This document shows positions 23,621 to 43,809 of a stretch of 64,000 nucleotides of DNA, piece after piece; the first letter of the stretch is position 1; every line of letters starts with the position of its first letter. The stretch lies in NCBI RefSeq assembly GCF_002778275.1, contig NZ_NESG01000006.1, positions 124,001 to 188,000 of the forward strand, in the 5' to 3' direction. The notes below the pieces were generated by a model, which searched no databases, was not told the DNA's origin, and saw only the letters and a list, made by a program, of their open reading frames with translations. This DNA is from Limnohabitans sp. G3-2 (lineage in GTDB: Bacteria > Pseudomonadota > Gammaproteobacteria > Burkholderiales > Burkholderiaceae_C). A program made the translations under genes and the position numbers.

Positions 23621-25653
23621 CACCGACCTCGCAAAAACAGCGCATCCAGGTCCCGCATCGTCATCTGACGCCAGGTGGGACGGCCGTGGTTGCATTGGTC
23701 GGAGCGCTCGGTCTCTTCCATTTGGCGCAGCAGGGCGTTCATTTCGTTCAGCGTCAGGCGGCGGTTGGCACGCACCGCACCGTGGCAGGCCATGGTGGCC
23801 AAAATCTCGTTTTGGGCGCGTTGCACCACCGTGCTGGCGTCGTGCTGGGCCAGCTCGGCCAACACGCTGCGGGCCAGCTCGACGGCATCGCCTTGCGCCA
23901 AACTCGTGGGCACGGCGCGCACGGCCAGGGTCTTGGCCGATAAGGGCGAAATTGCCAGACCCAACTGTTCCAGCGCTTCGGCGCAGGCCTCGGCCGTGGC
24001 GACTTCGGTGGGTGTGGCGGCAAAGGTGGCCGGGATCAACAGCGGTTGGCTCGCGATGCGCGGGCCTGCACCCTCGGCGGCGGTGAGCTGGTTTTTCAGG
24101 CGCTCGTAGACGATGCGCTCGTGGGCTGCGTGCATGTCCACCACCACCAAGCCTTGTTTGTTTTCGGCCAGGATGTAGACACCGTGCAGCTGCGCCACCG
24201 CCCGGCCCAGCGGCCAGTCGCCCTCGGGCATGGGCGATGCCGGCGTGGTGCTTTCTTGGTCGGAGCGAGCCCCTGCTCGCGAATCCCCTTCGTAGGAGCC
24301 CCCTGCTCGCGAATCCTCTTCGTGGGAGCGAGCCCCTGCTCGCGAAGGGCCTTCGGCTGCCGGGGCGGCCTCCCACATTCCTGCGGCCTCTGCGGCGTGC
24401 GGTGAGGGCTGCCACAGCGCCTTCAGGTCCGCCATGGCCTGCTCGCCATTGACCCGGGGACGCAAAAAATCTGCGGGTTTGAAGGCCGGCGCCTGGAAGA
24501 TCGAGGGGCCGGGCCGTTCAAACGCCATGCCGCCTTGCTGCCAAGTGGCCGACTCGGGCAAGGCTTTGGCGGCGGGGGCTTTCAGGCCAAAGTCGCTGGC
24601 AGGTTCGCCAGCGTCACCGCTCAGGTTCTGCGAGCGGGGGGCGGCCAGCGCATGTTCCAGCGCATGCCGCACCGCCTGGTGGACGGCGCGGCTGTCGCGA
24701 AACCGCACTTCGATCTTGGTGGGGTGCACGTTCACATCCACCAAGGTCGGGTCGATCTGCATGAACAGCGCATAAGCGGGTTGTTTGTGGCCGTGCAACA
24801 CGTCTTCGTAAGCGCTGCGGGCCCCGTGCATGACGACCTTGTCGCGCACAAAACGGCCATTGACATAAGCAAACTGGTGGTCTGGGCGCGAACGGGCGGC
24901 GTCGGGCAGGCCGGCGCGGCCGATCACCTGGAGCGGGCCGGCCTTGTATTCCACGGCGATGGACTGGCTCACGAACTCTTGGCCCAACACATCGGCCAGG
25001 CGCTGCTCCAAGCCCGCAGCACCGGGGTGGACCCGCCACTGCTCGACCAGCTTGCCTTCGTGCCAGATGGCAAAACCCACATCAGGGCGGGCCAGGGCAT
25101 GGCGGCGCACCGCCTCGATGCAGTGGGCCAGCTCGGTGCTGTCACTTTTCAAAAACTTGCGGCGCGCGGGCGTGGAGAAAAACAGCTCTTTGACCTCCAC
25201 CGTGGTGCCCACAGCGCGCGCGGCAGGGCGGATCTCGCCTGTGCGACCGTCCAGCGCAAAGGCGTTGGCTTGTCCGTCCATGCGCGAGAGCAAGGTGAGC
25301 TCAGACACCGAGTGGATGGCGGCCAGCGCTTCACCCCGAAAGCCCATGGTCATGACCGATTCCAGGTCATCCAGGTTGCCAATCTTGCTGGTGGCGTGGC
25401 GCTTCAAGGCGGTGGCCAGCTCGTCCGGTGCGATGCCGCCGCCGTCGTCCTCCACCGAGATCAGCCGGGTGCCGCCTCCCATCAGGCGCAGCGTGATGCT
25501 GCGTGCCCCTGCGTCCATGGCGTTGTCCACCAACTCGCGCACGACCGAAGCCGGGCGTTCGACCACCTCGCCGGCGGCGATTTGGCTGATCAGTTCATCG
25601 GGGAGTTCGCGAATGGGGCGGCGCGCGGTAGCCGGGGTCTGTTGGGAAGTCAC
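23620..25653 (-). CDS. mutL: DNA mismatch repair protein MutL, with a REP-derived linker insert
   Basis: A 677-residue protein. The N-terminal GHKL ATPase shows NAMDAGA, DDGGGI, RHATSKI and GFRGEAL. The C-terminal domain carries endonuclease-type motifs: DMHAAHERIVYE (fitting the DQHAxxExxxxE site with Gln to Met), ACHGAVRAN and CNHGRPTW. MutL is therefore probably a nicking enzyme, as in bacteria lacking MutH. Residues ~427-465 of the flexible linker are encoded by REP-like palindromes, giving SRAGARS-type repeats, yet the frame stays open. The gene heads a mutL-MFS-miaA run. Confidence 0.95.
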   Translation of the reverse strand: MTSQQTPATARRPIRELPDELISQIAAGEVVERPASVVRELVDNAMDAGARSITLRLMGGGTRLISVEDDGGGIAPDELATALKRHATSKIGNLDDLESVMTMGFRGEALAAIHSVSELTLLSRMDGQANAFALDGRTGEIRPAARAVGTTVEVKELFFSTPARRKFLKSDSTELAHCIEAVRRHALARPDVGFAIWHEGKLVEQWRVHPGAAGLEQRLADVLGQEFVSQSIAVEYKAGPLQVIGRAGLPDAARSRPDHQFAYVNGRFVRDKVVMHGARSAYEDVLHGHKQPAYALFMQIDPTLVDVNVHPTKIEVRFRDSRAVHQAVRHALEHALAAPRSQNLSGDAGEPASDFGLKAPAAKALPESATWQQGGMAFERPGPSIFQAPAFKPADFLRPRVNGEQAMADLKALWQPSPHAAEAAGMWEAAPAAEGPSRAGARSHEEDSRAGGSYEGDSRAGARSDQESTTPASPMPEGDWPLGRAVAQLHGVYILAENKQGLVVVDMHAAHERIVYERLKNQLTAAEGAGPRIASQPLLIPATFAATPTEVATAEACAEALEQLGLAISPLSAKTLAVRAVPTSLAQGDAVELARSVLAELAQHDASTVVQRAQNEILATMACHGAVRANRRLTLNEMNALLRQMEETERSDQCNHGRPTWRQMTMRDLDALFLRGR
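24259..24375 (-). repeat. REP-like palindrome cluster inside the mutL linker
   Basis: Three copies of the GCGAGC-CCCT-GCTCGC type element (one with a shortened left stem) and one degraded GGCCGC-type element are packed into ~117 bases of mutL. They are separated by nine-base spacers of the TCCCCTTCG type. The total length is a multiple of three within the frame and introduces no stop. The encoded peptide is rich in Ser, Arg, Ala and Gly (SRAGARS repeats), tolerable in a disordered linker. The same elements form the large arrays at 38.8-42.6 kb. Confidence 0.88.
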
Positions 25654-37836: not shown

Positions 37837-38745
37837 ATGCACGAGGCCAGCCAGAACGCCATCGACCGCTTTGCCGAGGCCCTCTGGCTGGAGGACGGGC
37901 TGGCCGCCAACACCTTGGCGGCCTACCGCCTCGATTTGTCGCTTTACGCCACCTGGTTGTTTGTAACGCACAGGCTGGCGCTGGCGGCGAGCCAAGAACA
38001 CCACCTGCAGTCGTACTTTGCTGAGCGGCATGGGCAGACCAAGGCCACCTCGGCCAACCGCCGGCTCACGGTGTTCAAGCGTTTTTTCAGATGGGCCTTG
38101 CGCGAGCGCCTCATCCAAGCCGATCCCACTTTGCGCATGCTGGCCGCCAAACAGGCCCTGCGCGTGCCCAAAACCTTGAGCGAGGCACAGGTCGATGCGT
38201 TGTTGTCCGCGCCCGATGTCAGCACGCCTTTGGGTTTGCGTGACCGCGCCATGCTGGAGTTGATGTACGCCAGCGGACTGCGTGTGAGCGAGTTGGTGAG
38301 CCTCAAAACCTTGCACGTCTCGCTCCACGAAGGCGTGCTGCGCATCATGGGCAAAGGCAGCAAAGAGCGTTTGGTGCCTTTTGGCGAAGAAGCGCGCGAC
38401 TGGTTGCAGCGCTACATGGGCCAAGCCCGGTCGGCCATGCTGGGCCCACGCCAGACCGAAGACCTGTTTGTCACCACCAGTGGCACCACACCCGGCAGCG
38501 CCATGTCCCGCGTGATGTTTTGGAGCCTGGTCAAGCGCTACGCCATCGACGCTGGCATCACCGCCCCTTTGTCGCCCCACACCCTGCGCCACGCTTTTGC
38601 CACGCATTTGCTCAACCATGGGGCCGACTTGAGGGCGGTACAGATGCTGTTGGGGCATGCCGACATCTCCACCACCACCATTTACACCCATGTGGCCCGA
38701 GAGCGCCTGAAAACGCTGCACGCGCAGCACCACCCCAGAGGCTGA
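37837..38745 (+). CDS. xerD: Tyrosine recombinase XerD
   Basis: A 302-residue site-specific recombinase that resolves chromosome dimers at dif with XerC. The N-terminal SAM-like domain covers residues ~8-90. Catalytic residues are visible: Arg in ASGLRVSELV, Lys in GKGSKERLVPFG, HxxR in SPHTLRHAFATHLL, the second His in LLGHADISTT and the nucleophile Tyr in TIYTHV. The family-typical length and the absence of integrase context favour a housekeeping XerD. It directly abuts repeat array A. Confidence 0.93.
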   Translation: MHEASQNAIDRFAEALWLEDGLAANTLAAYRLDLSLYATWLFVTHRLALAASQEHHLQSYFAERHGQTKATSANRRLTVFKRFFRWALRERLIQADPTLRMLAAKQALRVPKTLSEAQVDALLSAPDVSTPLGLRDRAMLELMYASGLRVSELVSLKTLHVSLHEGVLRIMGKGSKERLVPFGEEARDWLQRYMGQARSAMLGPRQTEDLFVTTSGTTPGSAMSRVMFWSLVKRYAIDAGITAPLSPHTLRHAFATHLLNHGADLRAVQMLLGHADISTTTIYTHVARERLKTLHAQHHPRG

Positions 38746-38762
38746 TGCGTCTGCTTTCCATC

Positions 38763-39320
38763 TGGGAGGCCGCCCCTGTGGCCAAAGGATGGCTCAGTCT
38801 CAGCATGCATTCGCGAGCAGGGGCTCGCTCCCACATTGGAATGGGCCTGGGTATTTTGTGGGAGGCCGCCCCTGCGGCCGAAGGTGGGTTCACCTACAGG
38901 TTTCATTCGCGAGCAGGGGCTCGCTCCCACAAGGGGCACACTCCCTCAGGGGGTCATTTCCACAGGGGCTCATTCCCATAAGGGTTTCACTCCCAAAGTG
39001 GCCTGCTCCCACATTGGCATGGGCTTTGGTGTTGTGTGGGAGGCCGCCCCTGCGGCCGAAGGTGGGTTCACCTCCAGCTTTCATTCGCGAGCAGGGGCTC
39101 GCTCCCACAGAGGCACCCTCCCACAGTGGTTCACTCCAACAGAGGCCTGCTCCCACATTGGCATGGGCTTTGGTGTTGTGTGGGAGGCCGCCCCTGCGGC
39201 CGAATGTGGGTTCACCTACAGCTTTCATTCGCGAGCAGGGGCTCGCTCCCACAGAGGCACACTCCTACAGGGGCTCACTCCCACAAGAGATCGCTCACAA
39301 AGGGGTTCACTCCCACAGGC
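38763..39320. repeat. REP-like array A with 16-bp minisatellite edges
   Basis: Four units begin at 38763, 38859, 39037 and 39181 (spacings 96, 178 and 144). Each has a GGCCGC-type hairpin, about 20 bases of linker, and an inverted GCGAGC-type hairpin ending CTCGCTCCCA. In the second to fourth units the end of the right hairpin (CAGGGGCTCGCTCCCA) is followed by two to five drifted copies of the same 16-mer, at 38930-39010, 39108-39155 and 39252-39315. No gene is supported in this 585-base stretch; the open frames through it are repeat artefacts. Confidence 0.92.
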
Positions 39321-39330
39321 GCGGGTGTGC

Positions 39331-40107
39331 TCAGCTCAAAGCGGCCAACTCTGCTTCGTCAAAACCTGCCAGCCGCCGGGCGGCCATGTTGAAGGGCGGA
39401 CGCAGTTTGGGGGCCTCGTATTGGGCGATCAATTCGGCATAGGTGCTGACCGGCTCCAAGCCGCGTTGTTCGCACACATGGCGGTACCAGCGGTTGCCAG
39501 CAGCCACGTGGCCAATTTCGTCTTGCAAAATGATGTCCAGGATTTCACCCGCTCTGTGGTCGCCCACACTGACCAGTTTGTTTTTCACGCCCGGTGAGGC
39601 GTCCAGGCCCCGCGCTTCCATGGTGCGCGGCACGATGCCGATGCGGGCCAGAATGTCGTTCTGGGTGCGCTCGGCCATGTCCCACAAGGTGTTGTGGGCA
39701 GGAAAGTCACCGTAGTCAAAGCCCAGGCTCAGCAGGTGTTGGCGCAGCAGGCCAAAGTGCTTGGCCTCCTCTTGGGCAATGCGCACCCAATCCGTGTAAA
39801 AAGCCTCGGGCATGCCCGCAAAGCGCCACACCACGTCGAGTGCCAGGTCGATGGCGTTGAGCTCGATGTGCGCGATCGAGTGCACCAGCATGGCCCGGCC
39901 CTCGGGCGTGGCCATGGATTTGGCTTTGAGCTGGGTGTGCGGCACCAGCAGCGGGCGTGCTGCACGGCCCGGGCCTGCAGAAGGGGCGCTCAGGTTCTCG
40001 AGCGCGCCCACGGGCAAGCTCAGGTCCAGGGCCAATGTGGCCTGGGCTTTCAGGTTCGGGTCGGTTTGCGCCCAGGGGATCAGGGCGGCGGAGCGCAAGG
40101 TGTGCAT
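39331..40107 (-). CDS. DUF455 family ferritin-like protein
   Basis: A 258-residue protein with helical, ferritin-like character. Paired acidic/His motifs typical of di-iron four-helix proteins appear as [26 protein letters not shown] and [12 protein letters not shown]. The family is related in fold to the tRNA hydroxylase MiaE, but the reaction is unknown. An ATG at 40167 would add 20 residues. The start at 40107 is preferred because the only visible minus-strand -10 (40158-40153) lies downstream of 40167. It is transcribed divergently from the carbonic-anhydrase-like gene. Confidence 0.86.
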
Positions 40108-40146
40108 GGCGATCACTGGCTGCGCCCACAGCAGGGGGTGGGCATC

Positions 40147-40160
40147 CCTACAATTGTAGG
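40147..40160. promoter_or_regulatory. Palindrome supplying TACAAT -10 boxes to both strands
   Basis: The perfect 14-base palindrome CCTACAATTGTAGG holds TACAAT on the plus strand (40149-40154) and on the minus strand (40158-40153). It lies between the divergent DUF455 and gamma-carbonic-anhydrase genes, so one palindrome may serve as the overlapping -10 of both, or as an operator. Confidence 0.5.
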
Positions 40161-40193
40161 TTTTCAAGAAAACCCAACCGACAGGAGACCGCC

Positions 40194-40718
40194 ATGGCCA
40201 TTTACCAATTGGATGATCAAACCCCCGATGTGGCCGACAGTGCCTGGGTGGCCGAGAACGCGCAGGTCATGGGCGCGGTCAAGATCTCGGCCGATGCCAG
40301 CATCTGGTTTGGCGTGACGGTGCGTGGTGACACCGAGACGATTGAGATCGGTGAGGGCAGCAACATCCAGGACGGCAGCGTCATGCACGCCGACCACGGC
40401 AAGCCAATCAAGGTCGGCAAACATGTGACGGTGGGCCACATGGTCATGCTGCACGGCTGCACCATCGGTGACGAGTCGCTGATCGGCATTGGCGCGGTGG
40501 TGCTCAATGGTGCCAAAATTGGCAAAAACTGCCTGGTGGGAGCGGGTTCGCTGGTGACCGAGGGCAAGGAATTTCCCGATGGCTCGATGATCATGGGCAC
40601 CCCTGCCAAGGTGGTGCGCGCCTTGACCCCCGAGCAGATTGAGGGCCTGCGCCAAAGCGCCCAGCATTACGTCGAGAACGCCCGTCGTTTCAAAACAGGC
40701 TTGAAAGCCATTTCCTGA
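40194..40718 (+). CDS. Gamma-carbonic anhydrase family protein (YrdA-like)
   Basis: A 174-residue left-handed beta-helix (hexapeptide repeat) protein. The metal-binding histidines are visible in VMHADHG and [11 protein letters not shown]. The repeated (I/V)GxGxx-type turns and C-terminal helix complete the fold. Some family members are true zinc/iron carbonic anhydrases and others have no proven activity. An AGGAGA ribosome-binding site stands before the ATG. It probably has its own promoter, shared back-to-back with the DUF455 gene. Confidence 0.92.
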
Positions 40719-40798
40719 ATGCGTTGTGGACCCTTTGTGGGTCCGCCGCGAACGTTTTAACCACCGAGGATCGGCCCTGTGGGGCTGTTGATTGAACT

Positions 40799-41785
40799 TT
40801 GTCCGAACTCCATAAATTCATTTTCGAAGGCCTGCCGGTGCGCGGCATGTTGGTGCGTCTGACCGATGCCTGGCAAGACATTCTGGCGCGCCGCGCTGCC
40901 AACTCCGAGACGGGCGCTTACCCTGCACCTGTGCGCCAGTTGCTCGGAGAGATGGCCGCAGCGGGCGTCTTGATGCAGGGCAACATCAAGTTCAATGGCG
41001 CTTTGGTGCTGCAGATTTTTGGGGATGGTCCGGTCAAGTTGGGTGTGGTCGAAGTCCAGCCCGACTTGAGCTTGCGGGCCACCTGCACCCAAGTGGGCGA
41101 GGTGGCCGACAACGCCACCCTGAGCCAGATGGTCAACGTGAACAACGAAGGGCGTTGCGCCATCACCCTGGACCCGCAAGACCGTTTGCCCGGCCAGCAG
41201 CCTTACCAAGGCGTGGTGCCGCTGTTTGGCGATCGGGGCGAAAAACTGGAAAACATCAGCGAGGTGTTGGAGCACTACATGTTGCAGTCCGAGCAACTCG
41301 ACACCGTGTTGGTGCTGGCGGCCGACGACAAAGTGGCGGCGGGCTTGCTGATCCAGCGCCTGCCCATCGAAGGCGAGGGCAATCTGGCCGGTCAAACCGA
41401 TTCATTCCTGCGCGAGTCGGTGCTGGGCCAGAGCGAAGATTTCAGCCGCATCTCGATCTTGACCAAGAGCCTCAAGCGCGAAGAGTTGTTGGGCTTGGAC
41501 GCCGAAACCATCTTGCACCGTTTGTATTGGGAGGAGCCCCTCGCGCGGTTCGAGCCCTTCATCGGCGAGACTGGCCCGCGTTTTGCCTGCCGGTGCAACC
41601 GCGAGCGCGTGGGCAACATGATCCGCAGCCTCGGCACCGAAGAGGTGGAGGGCATCATCGCCGAACAAGGTCAGGTGGAAGTGGGCTGCGACTTTTGCGG
41701 TGCGCAATACCGTTTTGACCCGGTGGACGCGGCGGGCCTGTTCACAGGTTTGCCCGCTGACGTGCCCGGCGGCTCGGTCCACTGA
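40799..41785 (+). CDS. hslO: Redox-regulated chaperone Hsp33
   Basis: A 328-residue holdase activated by oxidation. The zinc-binding cysteines form CRC and, about 32 residues later, CDFC (CxC...CxxC), as required. The N-terminus reads SELHKFIFEGLPVRGMLVRL from a TTG at 40799; no ATG gives a full-length protein, so TTG is the likely start and may keep expression low. The 80-base upstream gap has a GGACCC/GGGTCC hairpin at 40728-40744 without a T tract. The gene ends one base before array B. Confidence 0.93.
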   Translation: MSELHKFIFEGLPVRGMLVRLTDAWQDILARRAANSETGAYPAPVRQLLGEMAAAGVLMQGNIKFNGALVLQIFGDGPVKLGVVEVQPDLSLRATCTQVGEVADNATLSQMVNVNNEGRCAITLDPQDRLPGQQPYQGVVPLFGDRGEKLENISEVLEHYMLQSEQLDTVLVLAADDKVAAGLLIQRLPIEGEGNLAGQTDSFLRESVLGQSEDFSRISILTKSLKREELLGLDAETILHRLYWEEPLARFEPFIGETGPRFACRCNRERVGNMIRSLGTEEVEGIIAEQGQVEVGCDFCGAQYRFDPVDAAGLFTGLPADVPGGSVH

Positions 41786-42553
41786 ATTCTGGTGGGAGCG
41801 AGCCCCTGCTCGCGAATGATCGCTCGGGTGCGACAAAGATTCGGCCGCAGGGGCGGCCTCCCACAAGGGGAGCCGCTGAGCGTCAACCGAATTCTGGTGG
41901 GAGCGAGCCCCTGCTCGCGAATGATCGCTCGGGTGCGACAAAGATTCGGCCGCAGGGGCGGCCTCCCACAAGGAGCGCCGCTCAGCGTCAACCAAATGCT
42001 TGTGGGAGCGAGCCCCTGCTCGTGAATGATCGCTCGGGTGCGACAAAGATTCGGCCGCAGGGGCGGCCTCCCACAAGGGGAGCCGCTCAGCGTCAACCGA
42101 ATGCTTGTGGGAGCGAGCCCCTGCTCGTGAATGATCGCTCGGGTGCGACAAAGATTCGGCCGCAGGGGCGGCCTCCCACAAGGGGAGCCGCTCAGCGTCA
42201 ACCGAATGCTTGTGGGAGCGAGCCCCTGCTCGCGAATGATCGCTCGGGTGCGACAAAGATTCGGCCGCAGGGGCGGCCTCCCACAAGGCGAGTCGCGCAG
42301 CGTCCACCGAATTCTTGTGGGAGCGAGCCCCTGCTCGCGAAGGATCGCGCTGCCGCAGCAGAGATTCGGCCGCAGGGGCGGCCTCCCACCAGGCGAGTCG
42401 CTCAGCGTCCACCGAATTCTGGTGGGAGCGAGCCCCTGCTCGCGAATGATCGCTCGGGTGCGACAAAGATTCGGCCGCAGGGGCGGCCTCCCACAAGGAG
42501 AGTCGTGGAGCGTCCACCGAATTCTGGTGGGAGCGAGCCCCTGCTCGCGAAGG
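41786..42553. repeat. REP-like tandem array B, exact 105-bp period
   Basis: Seven full units and a final half unit start at 41792, 41897, 42002, 42107, 42212, 42317, 42422 and 42527, always 105 bases apart. Each unit has a GCGAGC-CCCT-GCTCGC hairpin, a ~22-base linker, the inverse GGCCGC-AGGG-GCGGCC hairpin and a ~32-base unique linker holding GCGTC(A/C)ACCGAAT. Units are nearly identical; the sixth has a diverged inner linker. The array fills the whole 774-base gap between hslO and the NadR-like gene, with no supported gene inside. Confidence 0.95.
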
Positions 42554-42559
42554 ATGGCG

Positions 42560-43228
42560 TCAGGTGGGGCGCTTGGCCAGCAGCCTGGTGAACAGTTGGT
42601 GTTCACAGACCGGGTCGCTGCACGCGTTGCATTGCCACACGGTGCGCCCCTCGTTGATGGCGAACTGGGCATTTTCCCTGGTCATGCGGGCTGCGTCGTC
42701 TTCGCCAGGCTGCCCCAGAGCCAGCAGGGCGTTGTTCAGCCGCTGCTGGCCTTGCCCGTAGACCACCCGGTAGGCAATGCCTGCACGCTCGAGCGCACGT
42801 CGCACCAGGGTGTCGACCGGGCCACGCACCTGCGGGCCGTCCCGTTGCCAGCCATCGGCCACCCAAGGCAAATCGAGGCCGGTCACCAAAGTCTTGTCGA
42901 AAAGCGCTTGGTGCGCCAATGCCATGGCGTAGAGACTTTCATCGCCAAACAAGAGGTGGCTGTAGACCGCTGTCATGAGGGGCGTGGTGTCTGAAATCAC
43001 CACGCCTTGCCGGATGCGCATCACCGCTTGGGCCTGGGCCTGGGCAATGTCACTTTGTTCGTGGGCCAGCGGCGTTCGGCCTTCACGCGCACACCAGTGG
43101 CGCAACACCTCCTCGACCGCATGGACGGTGTGCCCACGCGAACGCATCACACCTGCCAAGGCCTGGGTCAAGCCAGATTTTCCGGTGCTCTCTGCGCCCA
43201 GAATGGCGATGCGCTCAATCGGGCTCAT
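42560..43228 (-). CDS. NadR-like P-loop kinase (probable nicotinamide riboside kinase)
   Basis: A 222-residue ATPase with P-loop GAESTGKSGLTQAL at residues ~10-23 and DTTPLMTAVYS downstream, as in the kinase domain of NadR (AAA_28 group). It overlaps pnuC by four bases, so the pair probably imports and phosphorylates nicotinamide riboside for NAD salvage. The adenylyltransferase and DNA-binding parts of full NadR are absent. The C-terminus has a cysteine cluster (CNACSDPVCEH) that may bind metal and is unusual for the group. The stop lies seven bases from array B. Confidence 0.82.
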   Translation of the reverse strand: MSPIERIAILGAESTGKSGLTQALAGVMRSRGHTVHAVEEVLRHWCAREGRTPLAHEQSDIAQAQAQAVMRIRQGVVISDTTPLMTAVYSHLLFGDESLYAMALAHQALFDKTLVTGLDLPWVADGWQRDGPQVRGPVDTLVRRALERAGIAYRVVYGQGQQRLNNALLALGQPGEDDAARMTRENAQFAINEGRTVWQCNACSDPVCEHQLFTRLLAKRPT

Positions 43229-43809
43229 GCGAGCGATTCAGCCGCTTCGAGGGCCAGGCTTCGTCGCCAGGACCGCCAACCCCAAAGGCTCATGGCGGTG
43301 AACAGGGCGTACAAAACGCAGGTCAACCACAGGCCTTTGTGGGCAAACAAGGCCACGCTGATGGCATTGACCACCACCCAGACCAGCCAGTTTTCAAGGT
43401 ATTTGCGCCCCAACAGGACTTGCCCGACCAAACTCAGGGCTGTGGGCAGTGCATCCCACCAGGCCACATCGCTGTCGGTGAAGCGTTGCAGCAGCACAGC
43501 CAGTGCAGGCCAAAGCGCGGCGCTGCAGACCAGCACCACCCCCCAGCCGCGCCAAGACAGGCGTTGAACAGCGATGGCCGCTTGGGCGTCATCTGTTCTG
43601 CGAAGCCACTGCCACCAACCCCACAGGGAAATGGCCACAAAAACCAGTTGCAGGCCCGCCTCGCCGTACAGCAAGCTGTCCTTGAACACAAAGAAATACA
43701 GAATGGCGCTGGCGATGGACAGTGGCCAGCCCCAATGCCACTGCTGGATGTTGCAAACCACCATGGCCAGGCCGAGGACAAAACCTGCGATCTCGACCGG
43801 GGACATCAT
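43225..43809 (-). CDS. pnuC: Nicotinamide riboside transporter PnuC
   Basis: A 194-residue membrane protein with about seven helices. The conserved NIQQWHWGWPLSIASAILYFFVF and LWGWWQWLRR segments match PnuC, a facilitative carrier whose substrate is trapped by a cytoplasmic kinase. That kinase is the overlapping downstream gene. It also overlaps ftsB by four bases. Confidence 0.92.
   Translation of the reverse strand: MMSPVEIAGFVLGLAMVVCNIQQWHWGWPLSIASAILYFFVFKDSLLYGEAGLQLVFVAISLWGWWQWLRRTDDAQAAIAVQRLSWRGWGVVLVCSAALWPALAVLLQRFTDSDVAWWDALPTALSLVGQVLLGRKYLENWLVWVVVNAISVALFAHKGLWLTCVLYALFTAMSLWGWRSWRRSLALEAAESLA

Follow-up and report, generated by a model that had tools for sequence, protein, structure and literature searches.

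The 64,000-nucleotide (nt) stretch of the Limnohabitans sp. G3-2 genome analyzed here (contig NZ_NESG01000006.1, positions 124,001 to 188,000; hereafter, the window) contains two intergenic arrays of short hairpins, 23 in total between positions 38763 and 42551, which belong to two types, A (12 copies) and B (11 copies). Type A consists of the head TGGGA, the stem arms GCGAGC and GCTCGC enclosing the loop CCCT, and the tail GAA, and type B combines the same head, loop and tail with the stem arms GGCCGC and GCGGCC. The first array (38763-39318) is located between convergent genes for a tyrosine recombinase and a DUF455 protein and carries B hairpins on the plus strand (38763-38786, 38859-38882, 39037-39060 and 39181-39204) and A hairpins on the minus strand (38810-38833, 38906-38929, 39084-39107 and 39228-39251). 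The B copy at 38763, 18 nt past the recombinase stop codon, is decayed, with the 3' arm GTGGCC that leaves a G-T pair, and with the tail AAA. The A copy at 38906-38929 forms a tails-in doublet with the B copy at 38859-38882. Tandem arrays of half-hairpins, described below, are found on the minus strand at 38915-39013 (degenerate, leading into an intact A hairpin), 39102-39157 and 39236-39318 (reported with periods of 16 and 32).

The second array (41777-42555), between the convergent genes for Hsp33 (end 41785) and an AAA_28 protein (end 42560), has the opposite strand assignment and is made of approximately 7.4 tandem copies of a 105-base-pair (bp) unit, each full unit containing one A hairpin on the plus strand and one B hairpin on the minus strand. 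The A copies begin with 41793-41816, continue with starts at 41898, 42003, 42108, 42213, 42318 and 42423, and close the array at 42528-42551; the copies at 42003 and 42108 have one G-T pair each. The B copies are located at 41840-41863, 41945-41968, 42050-42073, 42155-42178, 42260-42283, 42365-42388 and 42470-42493. A separate small cluster in the window (24254-24375) comprises several intact and decayed A hairpins, including that at 24323-24346 (plus strand), and one decayed B hairpin, the partner of the latter (24352-24375, minus strand). This cluster overlaps the N-terminal part of a long minus-strand open reading frame with an MFS domain, the start of which is unsure, as the real start codon may be located further in.

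The repetitive extragenic palindromic (REP) element is defined by a 5' GT(A/G)G tetranucleotide before a palindrome (PMC3686654). The window copies have a GTGGGA head before a 6-bp stem, and GTAGGA head variants are present in related genomes. The 105-bp array, with its tandem REP modules in alternating orientation, has the form of a bacterial interspersed mosaic element (BIME). The REP- and BIME-like plan proposed in the original prediction, which was made from the sequence alone, is thus borne out by the heads, the inverted doublets and this array. Its three compensated differences between the A and B stems are also exact (C-G to G-C, G-C to C-G and A-T to C-G), and so are the shared loop and tail; the shared head had been given as TGGGAG, with the first stem G counted twice. 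The complementarity of the loops CCCT and AGGG, offered as a sign that they could pair with each other, is real; we dropped it as special evidence for pairing because it follows trivially from the same loop sitting in inverted orientation.

These hairpins are abundant far beyond the window. In the window's genome (G000, a 25-contig draft of 3,248,485 bases), we searched for the head, loop and tail while leaving the stems free, and used the reversed pattern as a control. With at most one mismatch, TGGGANNNNNNCCCTNNNNNNGAA matches 357 places compared to 4 for the reversed pattern, and exact matches to the pattern ending in GA number 246 compared to 0, so that the expected enrichment outside the window is confirmed. 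Among the 90 Limnohabitans genomes compared, 66 have at least one exact match, ranging from single, often chance-like places to 302 matches (G032).

The arrangement of the hairpins was analyzed in 140,749 bases of G000, chosen mostly around matches (C1, C2, C12, C19 and the window), the densities of which are not genome averages. Six complementary stem pairs are present in 131 of the 148 elements picked there on head, loop and tail. Tails-in neighbors are 50 A-B pairs, one B-B pair and no A-A pair, with a gap of 23-25 nt in 35 of the 50, and all 35 heads-in neighbors of assigned type are A-B, so that inverted neighbors within 140 bases comprise 85 A-B pairs and one B-B pair, besides eight pairs with an untyped element. 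Neighbors in direct orientation comprise 11 B-B pairs and two pairs with an untyped element. The elements fall into 38 clusters; A and B occupy opposite strands in each of the 27 clusters holding both, one cluster has two B copies only, and sampling one pair per cluster yields 27 A-B pairs versus one same-type pair. The clusters are not independent, because the copies descend by copying, which is itself expected of a replicating doublet. Thus, the two stems of the original prediction are real, but rather than free-standing types they represent two arms of one inverted doublet. In a symmetric REPIN, i.e., a REP doublet forming a hairpin, the arms are copies of one REP type; here, three of the six stem pairs differ between the arms, and the A/B unit fits the asymmetric REPIN form, an inverted tails-in doublet.

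The stems covary in a larger set as well. We collected every distinct 24-mer fitting the head, loop and tail, with an unconstrained stem, from the window, L006 and loci L021-L174 of G000 and other genomes of the genus. The resulting 89 sequences provide 52 distinct arm pairs, for which the Watson-Crick fraction is 0.715. Shuffling columns or arms (2000 shuffles each) lowers it to 0.481 on average, with maxima of 0.571 and 0.577; because relatedness makes the sequences non-independent, the shuffles serve only as a guide. We retained 21 sequences that have only two pairs in the 24-mer register and that, by reading, mostly represent the bulged stems of one clade of transposases (see below). The compensatory change described in the original prediction holds.

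At several sites in G000, a 16-nt unit composed of the head, the 5' stem arm and the loop is repeated in tandem. This half-hairpin pattern matches 37 places compared to one for the control, some of the places being ordinary hairpins. The half-hairpin arrays at L088, L255, L256 and L257 end in an intact hairpin at their 3' side, as do those in the window. They may represent slippage at the hairpin during replication, and would then be scars of hairpin formation.

REP elements are associated with REP-associated tyrosine transposases (RAYTs), a link that the original prediction had also drawn. A search with the NCBI RAYT model returned matches in 85 of the 90 genomes, in 50 of them above the cut-off of 80 bits. 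Besides a weaker, longer protein type, the stronger matches can be read as two clades, i and ii, the latter of which we take to resemble the RAYTs of pseudomonads. The HLH motif and the family-expected tyrosine are retained in nine aligned clade-ii members, with invariant H68, H70 and Y122, to which we presumptively assign catalytic-type roles. In the relatives G025 and G039, a clade-ii RAYT adjoins fdhD and has A/B hairpins on either side, the same REPs in inverted orientation; this gene is the cognate RAYT of the A/B unit in these genomes. In G000, two NF047646 matches were found, neither of them in the cognate clade, and the cognate RAYT was not found by the RAYT model or at the fdhD site, an absence that is not final in a draft genome. 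Similarly, the G025 protein has nothing closer in G000 than the clade-i RAYT, at 31% identity. The RAYT link thus holds in the relatives, whereas its cognate gene was not found in the window's own genome. A protein at C21:208270 (L006), with 79.1 and 80.6 bits against the cut-off of 80, was rejected as the cognate RAYT; it belongs to the longer protein type, which occurs across the genus, and has no hairpin in its vicinity. Among 20 scanned Y1_Tnp loci (L001-L020), such hairpins occur only at L015 and L018. In G037, the RAYT is present in two pieces on two contigs (L173 and L174), with IS30-type insertion-sequence-like DNA seen by eye at the break.

We compared the fdhD site across ten genomes. 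The gap between a permease gene and fdhD is approximately 880 bp in G025 and 970 bp in G039, both with the RAYT. In G000 it is approximately 270 bp and contains no RAYT; it retains the hairpins B, A, B and A, the outer B and A of which match the positions of the outer B and A in G025. We infer that the middle part of the site, including the RAYT, was deleted in G000. The short gaps in G021 and G073 lack a RAYT and, as judged by eye, an intact hairpin, whereas that in G063 is longer, again without a RAYT. The G080 contig breaks off within the hairpins adjoining fdhD and is therefore uninformative as to the RAYT, and in G028 and G036 the fetched stretch has neither a permease match nor a RAYT. 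In the trees of fdhD and of the permease, the RAYT-bearing G037 groups with G021, apart from G025 and G039, a topology that favors an old presence of the RAYT followed by what would be several losses.

The clade-ii RAYTs of the genus carry their own stem pairs. For 28 of them, we read the stems within 1.3 kb in the direction of the gene, leaving out G050:C3 and G085:C256, where the RAYT is broken or partial and lacks the motif. Counting arms as unlike when at least one pair differs, 20 of the 28 loci have unlike arms (14 at two or more pairs, five at one pair and one by another register) and eight have identical arms. The locus in another register, L119, lacks a sense stem when read in the 6-bp register and has GCTGAGC versus GCTGAA. 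For instance, in seven related RAYTs the commonest sense-strand stem is GCGACG or GCGGCG, with GCCCCG on the opposite strand; three have GCGAGC versus GGCCGC, GGCTGC or GGCTGT; four have bulged GCGCAC versus GCGCGC; and four have GCCAGC-type versus GCTTGC-type stems, one of them (G030) with variant stems. One clade (L104, L112, L114, L115 and L118) has hairpins that are bulged by one base after two stem pairs; the bulged base is A, C or T, and the stem stays paired. On the RAYT tree, the unlike/alike label changes four times, compared to 7.1 times on average when shuffled, and only 3 of 500 shuffles are as low.

A similar pattern was found beyond these loci among the best 80 of at least 560 confirmed relatives, which are near relatives of the query and no random sample. 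Fifteen of the 80 repeat Limnohabitans loci already counted and were excluded. In the 65 others, the arms differ at two or more pairs in 22 loci and at one pair in 17, they are alike in 19, and the remaining seven, without hairpins on both strands, were not scored. The stem of their own strand is present in 194 of 208 elements of the 22 loci, a count that is partly circular, as these elements also served to define the stems. The clearest case is a locus of Pseudomonas oleovorans, in which 41 of 41 elements fit the stem of their strand.

Taken together, these observations very probably identify the A/B hairpins as the arms of asymmetric REPINs that were mobilized by a RAYT and now form an orphan population after loss of the cognate RAYT beside fdhD. 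The unit would be a piece of non-autonomous mobile DNA of approximately 72 nt, in which an A and a B REP lie inverted, tail to tail, across a spacer mostly of 23-25 nt. In single-stranded DNA, each arm would fold into a small hairpin behind its GTRG head, and a single-strand transposase of the RAYT family, encoded elsewhere, would recognize the hairpins and copy the doublet to new sites. Binding and cutting of the single-stranded hairpin has been reported for other RAYTs, belonging to groups 2 and 3 (PMC8266576). Under this scheme the stems may change provided that both sides change together, and RAYT clades have their own stem pairs because the stems are free to change in this way. Loss of the RAYT in G000 would leave the doublets at the fdhD site and elsewhere as orphans, and local tandem duplication would build BIME arrays such as that at 41777-42555. 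The interpretation put forward in the original prediction is supported overall.

The data show the copy number, the compensation, the fixed pairing and polarity of the arms, the flanking of the RAYT in relatives and the lack of a RAYT at the corresponding site of G000; RAYT mobilization, folding in single-stranded DNA and the deletion are inferred. Several points weigh against this scheme. Movement itself was not observed; no branch is strongly supported in the fdhD and permease trees, which weigh RAYT loss against separate gain; and a RAYT may still lie within a repeat-rich gap of the 25-contig draft. Moreover, orphan copies are not consistently more decayed than copies accompanied by a RAYT. 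The share of exact copies, calculated as exact matches divided by matches with at most one mismatch minus controls, is 246/373 (0.66) in G000 and 214/334 in G037 with its split RAYT, compared to 27/53 (0.51) and 86/148 (0.58) in the RAYT-bearing G025 and G039. In genomes without a clade-ii RAYT match, it varies from 0.45 to 0.81 (G073, 203/282; G080, 122/151; G021, 24/51; G063, 65/146), the genomes of G073, G080 and G063 being incomplete (82-89%). Therefore, either the loss is recent, or copying within arrays inflates the share, or the copies are maintained in another way. A steady decay of REPs after RAYT loss has been proposed (PMC3686654), and would require a recent loss in G000.

Within the REPIN scheme, the chance that the A/B asymmetry is a founder accident, in which a single asymmetric doublet spread by amplification and tandem duplication and no selection favored unlike arms, is in our judgment evenly balanced. 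The shared descent of copies means that the 27 of 27 two-type clusters are not independent observations, and 8 of the 28 loci in the genus, like 19 of the 65 others, have the same stem on both strands. Transversions account for 27 of 38 differences between arms, near the two thirds expected under equal change rates; the corresponding count among variants of the same arm, 4 of 11, is lower (Fisher p = 0.07), which is not significant and suggestive only, and we do not take the excess as proof of selection. On the other hand, the asymmetry recurs with many stem pairs in 20 of 28 loci, the label changes less often on the tree than when shuffled, and the polarity relative to the RAYT is constant in related loci.

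The opposite explanation is that unlike stems were selected as a folding lock, breaking the pairing of one arm with the other while leaving the heads, the loops and each hairpin intact, so that a clover form remains available; we put this forward tentatively, as a doubtful possibility. It follows a proposal of Bertels and Rainey that the long hairpin of a REPIN is poorly recognized and the clover form is recognized (PMC3116915). Roles for the head motif and for loop positions in group-3 REP-cutting enzymes (PMC8266576) fit heads and loops that are fairly constant while the stems change. With DNA energies, the best fold of the 79 distinct unlike doublets is two hairpins in 37, one long hairpin in 37 and another structure in five, so two hairpins are not the invariable fold of unlike arms; on the opposite strand, two hairpins are the best fold in 30 of 79. 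Swapping stems in silico to make the arms identical results in one long hairpin in 79 of 79, whichever arm is altered. Averaged over 161 unlike doublets, the weaker arm folds into a hairpin of its own with a probability of 0.18; the value falls to 0.002 in 34 doublets with one difference and to 0.000 in 36 with identical arms. These calculations suggest that unlike arms would make the two-hairpin form possible, not dominant, and that a single differing pair would hardly help. If true, the folding lock would be widespread in such RAYT systems, many lineages having reached it with stems of their own, and would account for the two strand-fixed stems that RAYT clades maintain; the loci analyzed here would provide a natural test of the two-fold REPIN idea of PMC3116915.

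We regard it as improbable that the hairpins instead act chiefly as RNA, i.e., as 3'-end structures, terminators or stabilizers of mRNA that selection maintains at convergent gene ends, with the compensation arising from RNA folding. Both window arrays are indeed located between convergent genes, the nearest hairpins on three of four sides are approximately 8 to 18 nt from stop codons, and with RNA energies 78 of the 79 distinct unlike doublets form one long hairpin. However, an RNA function predicts neither stems matching the neighboring RAYT nor strand-specific stems, and the sole Rfam match (E at most 1, region 38000-43500) lies outside the arrays, with 21.2 bits against a threshold of 50. 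The folding calculations together with the RAYT link favor single-stranded DNA over RNA as the folding form, although the hairpins may have acquired an RNA role later. Slightly less probable still is that the strong RAYT of G000 mobilizes the A/B unit in trans, which would make the missing gene irrelevant. This clade-i RAYT (C24:95323-95736) has an open frame and 175.8 bits against the cut-off of 80, and the A/B copies are well preserved; however, it has its own palindrome on both sides, the different, GTAG-headed TGTAGGTCGGTGGCTTNAGCCCCGACA found at 12 places in the genome, and no A or B hairpin was found within the surrounding 15 kb. In the region C24:95098-95953 (L051:7099-7954), this palindrome is inverted, has one stem mismatch and adjoins 14-nt repeats of its outer part. 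Finally, binding of DNA gyrase, integration host factor or polymerase I is reported for Escherichia coli REPs or BIMEs (PMC3686654), but the view that the hairpins are host signals for these proteins or chromosome-structure sites unrelated to mobility is very unlikely, as it leaves unexplained both stems that change with the RAYT and clustering around RAYT genes.

How RAYTs choose and move REPINs and what becomes of REPINs after RAYT loss are open questions in the field. For the asymmetric REPINs described here, the genus offers matched sets, with the RAYT present (G025 and G039), split (G037) or not found (G000), and with clades having unlike or identical arms, which make it possible to test the decay of orphan REPINs and whether unlike arms raise transposition via two open hairpins.

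The A/B elements, REPs that make up asymmetric REPINs and BIMEs and go with a pseudomonad-like RAYT, are of a known kind. Published work already covers stem changes with compensation, abundant REPs where a RAYT is absent, and co-evolution (PMC2817692, PMC3686654). In the accessible portions of the literature, we found no description of such RAYT systems commonly keeping two stems with several compensated differences in a fixed strand relation to the RAYT, and the literature surveyed, mostly non-subscription journals, contained no treatment of these repeats in Limnohabitans. The BIMEs of enterobacteria, with their Y and Z palindromes, likewise have two unlike REPs that alternate in inverted orientation, form tandem arrays and flank a RAYT (PMC2817692), and enterobacterial REPINs have been termed asymmetric (PMC8049555). 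However, the REPs of E. coli carry a bulge in the stem and begin with GTAG (PMC8266576), whereas the stems here are short and perfect and the heads mostly GTGG. The RAYTs associated with the A/B hairpins also resemble those of pseudomonads. In Pseudomonas putida, RAYT-flanking REPs are TGTGGGAGCGGG...CCCGCGAA elements, the upstream and downstream copies of which may differ (PMC2817692); the differences listed there are single bases, in contrast to whole stem pairs here. The REPINs and RAYTs of fluorescent pseudomonads (PMC3686654, PMC3116915) share the GTGGGAG-type head, the short stem, the GAA or GAT tail, the inverted doublets and the flanked RAYT, and class PF10 (GTGGGAGCGAGCyTGCTCGCGAA) has the head, the GCGAG/CTCGC stem and the tail in common with type A. 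RAYT absence beside abundant REPs and RAYTs at the same locus with different REPs are also known in these bacteria. The pseudomonad table gives a single REP for each RAYT class, slightly ambiguous wherever two REPs differ, whereas here three compensated stem pairs distinguish the two arms, which occupy opposite strands.

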